Source: Marinifilum sp. D714 (GTDB taxonomy: Bacteria > Bacteroidota > Bacteroidia > Bacteroidales > Marinifilaceae). Taken from it: a stretch of DNA of 64,000 nucleotides. The stretch covers positions 124,001 to 188,000 of the forward strand of contig NZ_JALPNU010000007.1 in the NCBI RefSeq assembly GCF_030851345.1. The letters are read 5' to 3'. How positions within the stretch are numbered: position 1 is the stretch's first letter; each line of letters opens with the position of its first letter. The position numbers and the translations under genes were made by a program. The notes beneath the pieces were generated by a model. That model made no database searches and was not told where the DNA came from. It saw only the letters and a program-made list of their open reading frames with translations. Below, one piece after another: positions 12,988-20,667 of this stretch.

Positions 12988-14556
12988 ATGTTTAAAACAA
13001 AACGATTAAGCTGCCTTCTGTTATTGGTATTTTGCCTTAGCAGTATCTTGGTTAAAGCCCAAGGATTAAGCTCATCTCAAATTGATTCCCTTGCCAATAA
13101 AACATTAGAATCCTTTCCAATGGCTGGATTTGCCGTATCGGTAGTTCACAATGGAGAAGTAGTACACGCCAAAGGTTATGGAGTAAGATCCATTGAAAGC
13201 AAACAAGCTGTGGATGAAAATACTTTGTTTGCTATAGCTTCAAACAGCAAATCATTTACCGCTGCAGCTTTGGCCATATTGGTTGATGAGGGAAAATTGT
13301 CATGGAAGGATAAGGTGGTGAAGCACATTCCTGAGTTTACCATGTACAACTCCTATGTGCGAGATAATTTTACTGTGGAAGACTTGCTGTGTCACCGTAG
13401 CGGGCTTGGATTGGGCGCAGGTGACTTGATGATCTTTCCTGATGGCAGCGATTTCACCATTGATGATATCCTGGATAGTTTTCAGCACCAAACACCAGTG
13501 TCGGACTTTCGTACCAAGTACGATTACGATAATTTGTTGTACATCGTAGCGGGAGAAATCATACATAGACTGAGTGGCATGAGCTGGGCAGAATTTGTAG
13601 AGGAGAAAATTATGAAACCACTGCAAATGAATGCTTCTGCAGGATCGTTCAAGAGAATTAAAAACAAGGATAATGTAGCATTGCCACATTCATCGGAGTA
13701 TGGCGAGTTGGAAATTGTGGATGCCTACACCAATCCATTAATGGATGCTGCAGGTGGCATTTACGCCAGTGTAAATGATTTGAATAAATGGTTGATGATG
13801 CATTTGAATGGTGGAAAGTATGGGGAAGATGAGCAATTGTTTTCATCGCAAAACCAAAACAACATGTGGAGAGCTCACACCATGCTTCAGTTTTCGGCCA
13901 AAGGAAATGGCAAATACGAGAACCATTACAAAGCCTATGGTTTGGGTTGGGTGATCGAGGATTATAAAGGGTATACCATCATCAGTCATACCGGGGGATT
14001 GCCAGGCATGCTTTCAAAAACCGTATTGATTCCTGAGCTGAATGTGGGGATTGCGGTTTTAACCAATACACTACCTGGTGGGTATGCTTATTACATGATT
14101 CCGCAAGCCATTATCGATTCGTATATCGAAGCCAAACCAACCGATTGGAATGCCTTTGCAGCAGAGCGTCTAAAAGGAACGCAAAACAAGGTAGATTCAG
14201 TTGTGAATGCCGTTTGGAATACGGTTGATCTTGCCAAAGATGTAGCGATCCAAAAGAAAGACTACATTGGTTTGTATTGTGACAAGTGGTTTGGGAAAAT
14301 GGAAGTGTATGAGAAGGATGGTGAATTGTGGATGCGCTCCCTACGATCGCCTAAACTAACTGGTAAGATGCATTATTACAAGGCCAACAGCTTTGCGGTA
14401 AAATGGGCTTATCGCGATATGAATTGCGATGCTTTTGCCATTTTTGCCCTGGATGAGGAAGGTAAAGCACAAGGATTAAAAATGAAAGGAATCTCGCCCA
14501 ATATCGATTTCAGTTTCGACTTTCAGGATTTGAATTTGAAAAGGGTAGAGGAGTAA
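12988..14556 (+). CDS. exported serine hydrolase (class C beta-lactamase/penicillin-binding fold)
   Basis: 522 residues with a signal peptide (hydrophobic run to about residue 24, VKAQ). The three catalytic motifs of the class C beta-lactamase/PBP4 fold are present: S85-x-x-K88 (SNSK), Y180-x-N182 (YDN) and the KTG equivalent H334-TGG. After the hydrolase domain (about 30-375), the C-terminal 120 residues form a beta-rich domain of DUF3471 type, common in such proteins. Members are DD-peptidases, esterases or D-aminopeptidases in the periplasm; true beta-lactamase activity is uncommon. Monocistronic. Its stop codon is embedded in a 7-bp tandem repeat. Confidence 0.85.
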   Translation: MFKTKRLSCLLLLVFCLSSILVKAQGLSSSQIDSLANKTLESFPMAGFAVSVVHNGEVVHAKGYGVRSIESKQAVDENTLFAIASNSKSFTAAALAILVDEGKLSWKDKVVKHIPEFTMYNSYVRDNFTVEDLLCHRSGLGLGAGDLMIFPDGSDFTIDDILDSFQHQTPVSDFRTKYDYDNLLYIVAGEIIHRLSGMSWAEFVEEKIMKPLQMNASAGSFKRIKNKDNVALPHSSEYGELEIVDAYTNPLMDAAGGIYASVNDLNKWLMMHLNGGKYGEDEQLFSSQNQNNMWRAHTMLQFSAKGNGKYENHYKAYGLGWVIEDYKGYTIISHTGGLPGMLSKTVLIPELNVGIAVLTNTLPGGYAYYMIPQAIIDSYIEAKPTDWNAFAAERLKGTQNKVDSVVNAVWNTVDLAKDVAIQKKDYIGLYCDKWFGKMEVYEKDGELWMRSLRSPKLTGKMHYYKANSFAVKWAYRDMNCDAFAIFALDEEGKAQGLKMKGISPNIDFSFDFQDLNLKRVEE

Positions 14557-14593
14557 AGGAGAAAGGAGAAAGGAGAAAGGAGAAAGGAGAAAG
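14555..14593. repeat. tandem heptamer (AAAGGAG)5.6
   Basis: Five full copies and one partial copy of AAAGGAG begin within the TAA stop of the serine hydrolase. A change in copy number would not alter that protein because the stop precedes the repeats. Confidence 0.8.
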
Positions 14594-14745: not shown

Positions 14746-14765
14746 TAAGCCTAAACTAAGCCAAT

Positions 14766-15212
14766 ATGATTGACTATATAGACATTGAACCACAAGAAAT
14801 CTCTTTGATTAAAGAAGTTTGGATATGCAATAAAGAATTTCATGAAGAGATTGATGAGAACTTTACCTCTCAGTATGCAAGTTTGGATTTTGAAACTCGA
14901 ATGAACGCCATTGTTCAGAGTGGAAAGAACTTGAAAATAAGCATTGCAAAAAAGAACAATCGCATTTGCGCATATTGTATCTCAAGTATTGAAAATTGCA
15001 AGGGAGAAATAGAATCTTTGCATGTGTTGGAAAGTGAAAGGGGAAATGGAATCGGAAAAAAATTAACCCAGATGCACTTGGAGTGGCTAAAATCAAAGCA
15101 GTGTAAAGAAATAGGCTTGTATGTTGCTTCGTGCAACGAGAATACAATTGCCTTTTACAAAGAACTTGGTTTGCTACCCAACCTTACCTACATGCAATTA
15201 AAGGATTGGTGA
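14766..15212 (+). CDS. GNAT-family N-acetyltransferase
   Basis: 148 residues, complete. The acetyl-CoA pyrophosphate-binding loop ERGNGIGKKL (about 95-104) follows the beta-4 strand IESLHVLE. The C-terminal SCNENTIAFYKELGL matches motif B of GCN5-related acetyltransferases. The acceptor substrate cannot be inferred. It stands alone between repeat-rich spacers and ends in a terminator with a seven-T run (15270-15297). Confidence 0.85.
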   Translation: MIDYIDIEPQEISLIKEVWICNKEFHEEIDENFTSQYASLDFETRMNAIVQSGKNLKISIAKKNNRICAYCISSIENCKGEIESLHVLESERGNGIGKKLTQMHLEWLKSKQCKEIGLYVASCNENTIAFYKELGLLPNLTYMQLKDW

Positions 15213-15220
15213 TGAACCTT

Positions 15221-15270
15221 ATTTACATGTCTGGAATCTTTGAGATGCTGACATGTTCGTGAAAATATAG
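15221..15270. repeat. dispersed intergenic repeat family, copy A
   Basis: Contains CATGTC...GACATG arms and the core ATCTTTGAGATGCT. Related copies lie at 15341-15388 and 17861-17896, each 3' of a gene. Copies A and C both end just before a terminator hairpin with the shared stem sequence AGCCGCA. Confidence 0.5.
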
Positions 15271-15297
15271 AGCCGCACAATGTTGTGGCTTTTTTTA
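15270..15297 (+). terminator. terminator after GNAT gene
   Basis: AGCC(G)CACAA pairs with TTGTGGCT, followed by a run of seven T. Confidence 0.75.
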
Positions 15298-15340
15298 TTA
15301 TGGAATGATTGGCTTACTTTCTATGGAATCGTAAACTGCA

Positions 15341-15388
15341 TTTACATTTCAAGCATCTTGAAGATGCTTGACGTGTTTGTGAAATAAG
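15341..15388. repeat. dispersed intergenic repeat family, copy B
   Basis: Centre is a near-perfect palindrome: TCAAGCATCTT, one G, then AAGATGCTTGA (15349-15371). Sequence kin of copies A and C. It lies 5' of katG rather than 3' of a gene. Confidence 0.5.
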
Positions 15389-15485
15389 AAAACAATATGC
15401 GCTTAATGGTGTTTTGATTTTAAAGCGGTAAATATCTGTGAATTAAAACGTGAGAAGTTTTTGATCAAGCTTACTTCTTTCGTAA

Positions 15486-17720
<2,235 letters not shown>

Positions 17721-17785
17721 AAGGAGCGTTCAGTATTTAGCAATCAGCTTACAGCATCCAGCAATCAGAATTTATTTGCAGCGGA

Positions 17786-17896: not shown

Positions 17897-17903
17897 AAAA
17901 ACA

Positions 17904-17936
17904 AAAGAGCCGCATTATTGTGTGGCTCTTTATTTA
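17904..17936 (+). terminator. terminator after katG
   Basis: AAAGAGCC pairs with GGCTCTTT across a 12-nt loop, followed by a T-rich tail. Confidence 0.7.
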
Positions 17937-17981
17937 TTAAAGAGTTTAAGGGAGAGAATGTAACAATTGAGGGAATGTTGA

Positions 17982-18527
17982 TAGTACTTGTTATCTGATT
18001 AGCTGTATGTAAATGATAGTGAGGTGTATCTGTAGTTCAGTTAAGTGCATTTGGAGTAAGATTAATAGGACAAATTGATACATTAATTGAACTCGTAGGA
18101 TAATTAAATGAATAGATTATAAGGCTAAAAGAATCTGGATATTGGTAAGGTTTAGCTGTAATTAGATTAAATGAATTTGAATAATTGGTAGGGTGATTTA
18201 TAGGTAGTTTAAATGGACTTGTTTACCAATTAAATGTATTTGTATGATGATGAAGTGTATCTGTAAAGCAATTAAGTGTATCTGTATAACAATTTAGTGT
18301 ATCTGGAGTAAGATTAAGGGGACAGGTTGACAGATTAAAAGGATCTGGAGAATGATTAAACGGACTGATTGTCAGTTGAAGAGTATCTGTATGATGGTGA
18401 AGTGTATCTGTAAACTGATTAAGTGTACCTAAATCATAGTTAAGATCATGAAATGAATGGTGAAATAAAACTGTAATATGTTTAAATGTATTTGTATGCT
18501 TATTAAGTAAGCTTGTGAATTGATCAA
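17982..18527. repeat. array of about 26 diverged 21-bp tandem repeats
   Basis: Unit starts fall every 21 bp with no insertion or deletion, for example 18024, 18045, 18066, 18087, 18108, 18255, 18276, 18297, 18318 and 18402 through 18507. The best-conserved units read GTGTATCTGTA, six variable bases, then TTAA or TGAA; divergence is high at the edges. All plus-strand frames contain stops. One minus-strand frame shows a recurrent L-I-x-L-Q-I-H heptad but is broken by several stops. A decayed coding repeat or a phased non-coding array are both possible. The array fills most of the 1-kb gap between katG and the nuclease gene; the remaining 18528-18807 shows nothing recognisable. Confidence 0.85.
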
Positions 18528-18807
18528 GCGAAATACAATTGACCTCTGGAATCCGTAATGAGACATGGAATTCAAACTTGAATGACTATCTGTTGTTGCC
18601 ATAAGAATTAAGAGATGTAATTTATCTTTTATTTCGTTAAGCTATAAAAGCCTATAAATTAATCATAGGAATGCTTTGATTGAACTTTATTGTTTTGTAG
18701 ATTAGAAGTTCATTATCACATTGCAATAATATAATTCTACTATTTCTTATTTTCTAATCAACTTTTTGCATGTGATTTTTACTAATGTGTTACTTAAACA
18801 TACCCAA

Positions 18808-20667
18808 ATGAAACTTGTAAAAATATTAGATCTTGTTAATTCGTTAGAGAAAAACTCTTTCCTCAAGATTATTGATTGTATTAAGTCCTCAAACCCTAAG
18901 AACGCTAAAGAGATAGATAAAATTTTATCTGATAGCAGTAATGATCTAAAGAATGTTGATAGTTTAAATATTTCAAAAGTATTTGACCTGGTCAAGTCTG
19001 AGTTTGCTGAAACTGTAAAATCAGAATTCGTTAATACTACCTCACAGCTTGATATTTTAATTGATATTATCATTAAGGATGGTAACTGTATTTTAAAGCA
19101 AGATTGGCTAGCTCGATTGTATGAAAAAGAACTAAAGAATATTAAAGAGAGAACAAAAAGTCTTAAAGTTCAACTAGAGGATGAAAAATCTGAAATTCCT
19201 GAACTGCTAAGGAGAGATTATGAGATTTATAGAGCATGTGTTGAAACAGCATATATAAATGATGGAGATAATAATCGAGATGCAAAAATCACGGATGACG
19301 AACTATCAATACTTTTGACCTTAGCTAATGCATTAGAGCTATCACAAGAAGAAGTTAAGATGATAAATTACTTAACTATTCCACCTGAAAAATTAGATAT
19401 CGATTCTATAATAACATTTCTTAAAAATATTGGAGTAATCTTTTATTCAAGGAAAAACAATTTGGTTTATGTTGCGGATGAGGTTGTTGCAGTACTAAGA
19501 GAAATGAGACAAAAAGAGATTGCGGATAAATACTATAGAAGAGTATTGAAAACTTTTAAAGAATCGCAACTAAATCTTGTGTGTAGAAAGCACAATATCA
19601 ATATTAAAGATTTAGATTATGAAGAAAAAGTAAATCGTATAATCACCAGTGGAATTTCATTTACAAACTTATTAAAAACGGGAATTTATAAGGATGGAGT
19701 TAATCTAACTGAGAAGAAAAAATTCTTAAATGAATTATGGGAGAATGGATTGAAAGTTGAATCTTCATTGAGAGGAACAACACTTGAGGATAAAATTGAG
19801 AATTTGATTTTATTCTTTAAGGAGCAGGAGAAAGATGAAAAAGTTGGTATTTCTATAGAAGGTTATGAGAGACTTTTAATTGATTTAATCGAAGAGTTAA
19901 AAACATTTAGAAAAACATTTCTAAAGAAGTTTGAAATGCCTGAAGAGACTGTAATAAACAGTTCTACTCTTCTGGATTGTAATATTAAACCAAGAGATAT
20001 CTTAGATATACTGAATGCAGATGAACTCAAAGAGTTTGTTAATGTGAAAGGCTTAAAATCTAGAGGAGATCTAGTTTTAAATATTTTAGACGCATATAAA
20101 GATGCAGAAAACTTAATGATTGAAAATTACGAAGCTATTGGTTTCCGAAACCTGGAATTATTAAGAGAAAATGGAATAACAATTAAAGAGAGTGAATTAG
20201 GACTAAAGTTCGAAGATATCACTAAAACCATTTTTGAAAAGCTTGGTTTTAATGTTGATGAAACATTAAAGAAAAAGCTTAACAATGCAAAAAACAAAAT
20301 GGATTTAGTTCTAAATCTGGGAAATGAAGATGTAATTATTGTTGAGTGTAAGACAGTAAAAGAGAGTGGATACAATAAGTTTAGCTCGGTTTCAAGACAA
20401 ATGAAGTCCTATGTTAATGTTGCCAAAAATAATGGTTACAATGTTGTTAAATCACTTTTAGTAGCACCAGAATTTAGTGATGACTTTATAAACGAATGTG
20501 ATTTAGAATTTGAAATAAACCTTTCACTTATTACGGCAAGTTCTATGGGTAACATTCTTGAAGGATTTAAAAATTCAAAACACAAACAATTTCCTTATCA
20601 ATTATTATTAAAAGATGTGCTTATTAAAGAGGAGCGTATATTAAAGGCGATGGCTAAAAAGAATTAA
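18808..20667 (+). CDS. putative PD-(D/E)XK nuclease with SAP-like motif
   Basis: 619 residues from ATG 18808; an in-frame ATG at 18766 would add 14 atypical residues. The C-terminal domain has a restriction-endonuclease-like core: E469 (FEDITKTIFEKLGF), D499 (KMDLVLNL) and E513-x-K515 (IVECKT), then QMKSYVNVAKNNGY. Before it, about 400-435, lies a SAP-like helix-extended loop-helix (ADELKEFVNVKGLKSRGDLV), a DNA-binding motif. Residues about 150-190 (ITDDELSILLTLANALELS) recall a TerB/EF-hand-like helical segment. The N-terminal part is helical and charged. No methylase or helicase partner is adjacent. A single-gene defence nuclease is plausible but unproven. It is flanked by the 21-bp array and a hairpin element. 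Confidence 0.65.
   Translation: MKLVKILDLVNSLEKNSFLKIIDCIKSSNPKNAKEIDKILSDSSNDLKNVDSLNISKVFDLVKSEFAETVKSEFVNTTSQLDILIDIIIKDGNCILKQDWLARLYEKELKNIKERTKSLKVQLEDEKSEIPELLRRDYEIYRACVETAYINDGDNNRDAKITDDELSILLTLANALELSQEEVKMINYLTIPPEKLDIDSIITFLKNIGVIFYSRKNNLVYVADEVVAVLREMRQKEIADKYYRRVLKTFKESQLNLVCRKHNINIKDLDYEEKVNRIITSGISFTNLLKTGIYKDGVNLTEKKKFLNELWENGLKVESSLRGTTLEDKIENLILFFKEQEKDEKVGISIEGYERLLIDLIEELKTFRKTFLKKFEMPEETVINSSTLLDCNIKPRDILDILNADELKEFVNVKGLKSRGDLVLNILDAYKDAENLMIENYEAIGFRNLELLRENGITIKESELGLKFEDITKTIFEKLGFNVDETLKKKLNNAKNKMDLVLNLGNEDVIIVECKTVKESGYNKFSSVSRQMKSYVNVAKNNGYNVVKSLLVAPEFSDDFINECDLEFEINLSLITASSMGNILEGFKNSKHKQFPYQLLLKDVLIKEERILKAMAKKN

Follow-up and report, generated by a model that had tools for sequence, protein, structure and literature searches.

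An intergenic array of 21-bp repeats in Marinifilum and a genome-wide class of arrays with clustered unit lengths

How can a tandem repeat lose most of its sequence and still keep the length of its units? This question is raised by a noncoding stretch in the window, a segment of 64,000 nucleotides from Marinifilum sp. D714 (contig NZ_JALPNU010000007.1, positions 124,001 to 188,000), for which an earlier note, made from the letters alone, had described about 26 strongly diverged 21-bp units in perfect register at 17982-18527, had proposed selection on spacing or a former coding repeat of seven residues, and had pointed to a putative nuclease gene next to it. Intergenic repeats in bacteria are usually regarded as junk or as mobile debris. 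Here, the array (array 1) is compared with other arrays of its own genome (G000) and with 56 relatives, i.e., 57 genomes including its own, among them the sister genome G001 and Marinifilum sp. D737 (G002).

The array and its surroundings

The array is real, although slightly longer than first described, comprising about 28 units with a start near 17940 (Table 1). Autocorrelation of 17982-18527 yielded an identity of 0.512 at lag 21, 0.546 at lag 42 and 0.505, 0.498, 0.540 and 0.545 at lags 63, 84, 105 and 126, compared with 0.287 and 0.282 at the off-period lags 20 and 22; the highest identity at lags 15-63 in 1,000 2-mer shuffles of the array was 0.389, so the predicted peak at 21 bp is clearly present. 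Lag 7 is not among the best lags. The unit consensus on the plus strand is approximately GTGTATCTGTA-N6-TTAA, and the 26 units of 17982-18527 share a mean identity of 52%. These units are contiguous and range from 19 to 90% in identity, which separates them from CRISPR with its near-identical repeats and unique spacers, and TRF at default settings picks up just the best parts of the array (18227-18305, 18299-18389, and 18377-18427). The GC skew of 0.55 over 17961-18527 indicates a strong strand bias, the largest among the 33 arrays surveyed below; strand skew was rejected as a common principle of the arrays, the class as a whole not being extreme (p = 0.44) and array 1 alone being so.

Table 1. 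Features at and around array 1 (positions in the window)
Feature	Position	Strand	Description	Basis
Terminator-like hairpin	17904..17931	+	Just 5' of array 1	Consensus scan: 1 found, 0.3 expected
Array 1	17940..18527	.	About 28 tandem 21-bp units, noncoding	Autocorrelation, unit rows, G001 orthologue, G000 paralogue
Spacer after array 1	18528..18640	.	Fast-diverging	30/111 aligned bases differ from G001
Conserved stretch 5' of the nuclease-like gene	18641..18807	+	Probable promoter region of the nuclease-like gene	1/161 bases differs from G001 over 18641-18801
Nuclease-like ORF	18766..20667	+	Likely ATG at 18808; neighbour of array 1	No family assigned

The hairpin preceding the array is also present in G001, and a similar one is found at the D737 locus. 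Downstream, divergence from G001 changes sharply, amounting to 4.8% in array 1, 27% in the spacer and 0.6% in the stretch after the spacer. A segment of about 40 bp, TTTATTTCGTTAAGCTATAAA (window 18612-18672), lies just 5' of the nuclease-like gene and in D737 also follows this gene. At E < 0.01, a single further copy exists in the 1.26 Mb of the own genome searched. The segment is also found beside another array (C50:332026, L275), and these occurrences suggest a small dispersed element or a part of a promoter. The nuclease identity of the gene could not be confirmed, as no family in Pfam, NCBIfam or PADLOC fits the ORF. Its supposed link to the array was not supported either: the gene is present without array 1 in D737, and the neighbours of other arrays are diverse. 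A mobile nuclease cassette travelling with the array likewise found no support, as the gene occurs in D737 without the array and also in other genera.

On the other side, the upstream neighbour of array 1 is an ORF with a Pfam peroxidase match (15522-17720), which we take to be katG-like. Together with a small, presumably acetyltransferase-like ORF (14766-15212) it lies within 14746-17764, a stretch missing at this locus in both G001 and D737, and both edges of this stretch match the same approximately 50 bases of G001, which would be expected of a direct repeat. Further upstream, at 14549-14593, the heptamer AGGAGAA is repeated, and this repeat is longer in G001.

Unit lengths and positions of arrays across the genome

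Array 1 belongs to a class of intergenic arrays, spread over the genome, in which unit lengths cluster irrespective of sequence. The survey script required a mean identity of at least 47% over 105 bp, scanned periods 7-69, and was applied to a sample of 1.264 Mb, about a quarter of the genome and including the window, with genes defined as long ORFs rather than by trained gene prediction. All 33 noncoding arrays with a period of 12-69 bp, three of which fall in one region (L088), have unit lengths of 20-23, 41-45 or 62-66 bp, namely 20 (one array), 21 (nine), 23 (five), 41 (five), 42 (seven), 44 (two), 45 (one), 62 (one), and 66 bp (two), and none lies elsewhere. This corresponds to about 26 arrays per Mb in the part of the genome sampled. 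Coding arrays in the same DNA have other periods (33, 57, 69), and the method is therefore not blind to them. After block shuffling, no array was called in 464 kb of the own genome, and two were called in 400 kb of G009. With TRF at loose settings, all 25 arrays below 70 bp in the own genome fall at 20-23, 40-46 or 61-67 bp, with one longer array each at 82, 126, and 198 bp. In 10 of the 15 arrays of 41-45 bp, another sub-lag scores better than half the period, so that these lengths do not result from a simple doubling of 21. Apart from these classes, the survey returned seven heptamer arrays and one octamer array in the own genome, and arrays of period 7 are frequent among the Bacteroidota sampled, with 28 noncoding ones in 80 named loci.

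In 400 kb of G001, 10 of 10 noncoding arrays fall into the same clusters, two of them at loci that had been included on account of arrays 1 and 2 (array 2 being a paralogue described below). The other genomes gave noncoding arrays (period of at least 12) in the clusters in 3/3 (G015), 2/3 (G009), and 0/1 (G032) cases, and the 80 named loci, mostly from Bacteroidota genomes and chosen for the nuclease-like gene, in 8/19. The corresponding TRF counts were 6/6 in G001, 1/2 in G009, 3/3 in G015 and G032 together, and 7/13 in the named loci.

Few arrays resemble one another in sequence. Among 34 arrays including array 2, five pairs are related at E 1e-4, and two more share a motif by eye (L089 with C28:81611, and C50:173661 with C50:273527); neither a motif common to the arrays nor a binding protein could be found. 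At L088 6771-8296, a 21-bp array has two mutually related arrays of 66-bp period nearby, and G004 has several matches to part of this neighbourhood. Arrays of 21 bp with other sequences also came to light in other genera, through weak protein matches in G007 (two loci), G019, and G034 and through the search for the nuclease-like gene in G030, while the remaining weak protein matches examined had no 21-bp period. In some of these arrays of other genera (L043 1-290, L052 1415-1640, L042 1516-1650, L040 1495-1750, and L036 4400-4690), many units contain a 12-bp palindrome (TGTCCCGGGACA, AATTGTACAATT), and about 1 kb separates the L036 array from an orthologue of the nuclease-like gene downstream.

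With respect to genes, 12 of the 33 arrays lie in convergent, 4 in divergent and 17 in tandem gaps, so that convergent gaps are enriched over the 4.8 arrays expected from their share of bases (p = 0.0015), and of the 17 arrays in tandem gaps 13 are closer to the gene that ends upstream of them, on its 3' side (p = 0.02). This placement resembles that of the BIME/REP elements of enterobacteria, which are likewise dispersed and intergenic and are found at 3' ends and between convergent genes; REP units, however, are related palindromes, whereas array 1 has no dyad symmetry. TIGR-Tas guide arrays, in which short constant and variable parts alternate, share this alternation with the Marinifilum arrays, but the latter are dispersed and not located beside one effector gene. 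The Nop domain that characterises Tas proteins (PF01798) had no match in the own genome (E 0.01), and TIGR-Tas was rejected; the same search was positive in 4 of 14 control genomes, all archaea.

Substitutions, indels and fixed slots

Array 2 lies at about G000:C39:357273-357712 and matches array 1 with 78% identity over 161 bp, inside the arrays only. Among the 56 relatives both arrays were found only in G001, next to a marginal 34-base match (E 0.009) of G025 to the flank of array 2. After alignment, the length of each array differs from its G001 counterpart by one 21-bp unit and by nothing else. For array 1 this exact unit is the sole indel, the strict register described earlier thus holds, and the random indels between units that would speak against it were not seen. 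The sequence of array 1 is without clear constraint: it has diverged by 4.8%, close to the 6.0% (11/184) measured at fourfold sites in the gene next to it, whereas the immediate flanks have diverged by 18% and 27%.

In D737, array 1 is missing from the interval that separates the counterpart of the gene at window 12988-14556 from the nuclease-like gene; this interval contains a stretch that resembles, by eye, modules of a 41-bp family found elsewhere in the own genome (G000:C50:273527). The 21-bp array at the array 2 locus of D737 (L301 1958-2377) does not match array 2 itself at E 0.01, although it is flanked by homologous DNA, 390-460 bp of it noncoding before the array and a gene after it. 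A related array in G003 lies at a contig end, its following gene being on another contig, so that its slot is presumptive. A single locus carries 21-bp arrays without detectable similarity in G000/G001 and in G002/G003 (with the slot in G003 presumptive), and the sequence in this slot may have been either replaced or changed beyond recognition. The arrays of G000, G002, and G003 at the L089 locus belong to one family; in G001 the array has a 41-bp period and matches this family over short pieces only, 31 bp at best (E 0.002), mainly the right flank being clearly orthologous at this locus. In G002, furthermore, the L078 array is missing and the L095 array is shorter by about ten lost units; these two cases were left out of the pairs counted below.

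Seven arrays could be aligned between congeners in 13 pairs, each of which includes G000, so that the pairs are not independent. The main count used strict gap costs, borders set by the analyst and afterwards trimmed, and a merging of gaps that favoured the arrays, as array gaps were merged if their sum was a multiple of 21 and flank gaps only if it was zero. Under these conditions the arrays showed 609 substitutions in 3883 aligned bases and five indels (-21, +21, -21, -1, -41), and the flanks 779 substitutions in 5268 bases and 44 indels, of which two are multiples of 21. Non-unit indels therefore number 2 per 609 substitutions in arrays and 42 per 779 in flanks (Fisher p = 1e-8), and changes by whole units 3 per 609. 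A recount with equal treatment of arrays and flanks under eight settings of borders (both sets), gap costs and merging gave 2-21 non-unit indels in arrays and 39-92 in flanks, with p from 1.6e-6 to 3e-12. As the choice of arrays had favoured those with an intact register in the own genome, the expectation was also halved, which leaves 16.4 non-unit indels expected and 2 seen (p = 1e-5). The central claim of the earlier note, that length is kept while sequence is lost, is borne out by these counts and by the dissimilar 21-bp arrays at one locus. The register is not absolute, as the L085 array mixes units of 20 and 21 bp and indels of 1 and 41 bp occur within arrays.

Consensus columns evolve more slowly between species, with a pooled Spearman coefficient of -0.49 compared with -0.11 ± 0.09 in 400 neutral simulations, which assume uniform mutation and have a minimum of -0.33, none being as low as the observed value. 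Taken singly, three of the seven arrays are significant (L078, L089, and L088), and array 1, array 2, L080, and L095 are not.

Proposed selection on spacing and its rivals

Drifting sequence combined with kept length is what selection on spacing predicts, and the indel counts therefore suggest purifying selection on the spacing of the units. We assign a probability of about 0.4 to the reading that the arrays, placed between transcription units, offer phased sites to a DNA-binding or architectural protein; the aligned arrays do retain a constant spacing against substitution, as phased arrays should. Each module would hold a protein on the DNA, or a structure stabilised by protein, at a distance of about two helical turns from its neighbour, and the array would be occupied as an ordered series of modules. 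Behind a terminator and before the next promoter, such a series would have an architectural or insulating role between one transcription unit and the following one. Because sequences vary from one array family to another, several proteins might be involved, or recognition might proceed largely by shape and spacing. The arrays of 23 bp (5/33), 44 bp (two), and 45 bp (one) speak against a strict helical phasing on one face, as does the failure to find equally phased spacings of three or five turns (31-32 or 52 bp) in the part of the own genome surveyed. A module of about 21-23 bp set by the footprint of a protein would fit both these arrays and the missing spacings.

The main rival, which we consider somewhat unlikely, is that the arrays are neutral minisatellites, generated by duplication or slippage with a quantum of about 21 bp and left to decay where nothing selects against them, as in convergent gaps or downstream of terminators. 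It agrees with the preference for the 3' side of genes and for convergent gaps, the least constrained DNA, with the diversity of the 20 neighbouring proteins scanned (16 with a Pfam match), which have no common theme, with substitution rates that are alike in arrays and flanks, and with the observed gain and loss of whole units. However, flank-like decay would have left 33 small indels where 2 were seen, an imbalance that is robust over settings, and the turnover of units is too slow to purge those of aberrant length. The slower consensus columns also speak against neutrality, although gene conversion could contribute to them, as do the 41-45-bp arrays that are not simply doubled. Rather unlikely is the alternative that the arrays are mobile minisatellites, repeats that travel inside MITEs and reach new loci with the help of a transposase. 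Arrays 1 and 2 are indeed paralogous at unlinked loci, four further pairs show relatedness at E 1e-4 (in one case between neighbours, in another over only 32 bp), one slot holds different arrays in different species, four matches of 32-45 bp link the flanks of five different arrays including array 1, and the best candidates for inverted ends around array 1 are short, imperfect arms (12 nt, 83%; 17898-17909 and 18685-18696). On the other hand, no general leader or tail was found: the 68 flanks of 34 arrays (2278 pairs) yielded 13 matching pieces, nine of which lie within the L088 region or on the two sides of a single array. Likewise, arrays 1 and 2 are alike only internally, the segment beside array 1 has a single further copy in the part of the own genome searched (E < 0.01), and the terminal motif of BrickBuilt occurs at chance frequency in the window and not at all near array 1.

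The closest known case is that of Porphyromonas gingivalis, in whose strain W83 repeats of 22, 23, and 41 nt are noted, the 23-nt repeats forming the BrickBuilt minisatellite within a MITE and the 41-nt repeats 464/PgRS (PMC4596501). The mobile reading draws on this case, since P. gingivalis belongs to the same class and its 23- and 41-nt arrays lie in MITE-like elements (PMC4596501), and its three unit lengths match the Marinifilum clusters. Both sets of arrays are found in Bacteroidia, are intergenic, consist of imperfect direct repeats without spacers, and expand and contract by whole units; array 1, with its period of 21, is in this respect of the BrickBuilt type (tandem, intergenic direct repeats of about 23 nt). 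BrickBuilt is described there with leader, tail and IS-like terminal inverted repeats, with 19 related copies in one strain and with at most 11% mismatches within an element (PMC4596501), whereas no general flanks were found for the Marinifilum arrays, which form small families, many of them sharing the unit length only, and the units of array 1 agree far less with one another. TAACTGA and other heptamer direct repeats have been described in Beggiatoaceae, Cyanobacteria, and some Bacteroidetes (PMC4679880). They are numerous, intergenic and tandem, and heptamer arrays also exist in the own genome (14549-14593), but they have a 7-nt unit of one fixed sequence, and array 1 has no best-lag signal at 7. 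Other repeats are described in PMC5771137 and PMC4060949, and in the accessible portions of these two papers and of PMC4679880 there is no 21-bp length rule; our search of the open-licence PubMed Central literature found no report of one.

Two further explanations concern array 1 as a gene remnant or as a transcript. That the units are the remnant of a heptad-repeat protein on the minus strand, the coding origin considered in the earlier note, is highly improbable, and coding on either strand was rejected. All six frames contain stops; the recurrent LIxLQIH frame noted before does contain stops, eight of them, but another minus frame (xTDTLNx) is more open, with only two across 200 codons and three (G000) or two (G001) in the matching frame of the paralogue. 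So few stops are predicted by the composition of the units alone, as column shuffling yields 3.35 (p = 0.31), and both stops of array 1 are also present in G001. Weak tblastn matches (E 0.009-0.09) to long open frames of G046, G053, and G027 might favour a protein origin; however, no match outside G000 and G001 is below E 0.004, matches at four loci (G007, G019, G034) fall within the 21-bp arrays of different sequence, no frame is free of stops in most other arrays inspected (L089, L073, L042, and L052 being exceptions), and array indels are, with two exceptions, whole units rather than any multiple of 3. A transcribed array whose units work as RNA hairpins or protein-binding sites is likewise improbable, if less so. 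Dyad symmetry of the unit reaches z ≥ 3 in 9 of 33 arrays of the own genome and p < 0.05 in 7 of 15 arrays of an earlier set that included other genomes, but array 1 itself has none (p = 0.76), and on both strands its folding does not surpass that of shuffled sequences (z +1.75 and +0.21). Rfam gave nothing at threshold around array 1, with two sub-threshold matches over the preceding terminator, and nothing at the arrays of six further loci, a riboswitch and two tRNAs being found elsewhere in those loci. Palindromic units as a shared principle were rejected, dyad symmetry exceeding chance in some arrays only.

Returning to phased sites held by selection on spacing, what the arrays share and what species keep is the length of the repeat and not its sequence. 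A broader and more doubtful proposal is that Marinifilum, and to some degree other Bacteroidia, possess a sequence-independent intergenic length ruler of about 21 bp, which selection would hold at two helical turns and their multiples, which would yield ordered, protein-covered segments between transcription units, and whose array families would be replaced in fixed slots. The clustering of unit lengths is less marked in other Bacteroidota (8/19 arrays in the 80 named loci, and 0/1 in G032), which also speaks against phased sites. Confirmation would point to a rule for spacing in bacterial chromosomes, set physically or by proteins, and the 22-, 23-, and 41-nt repeats of P. gingivalis would gain a wider context.
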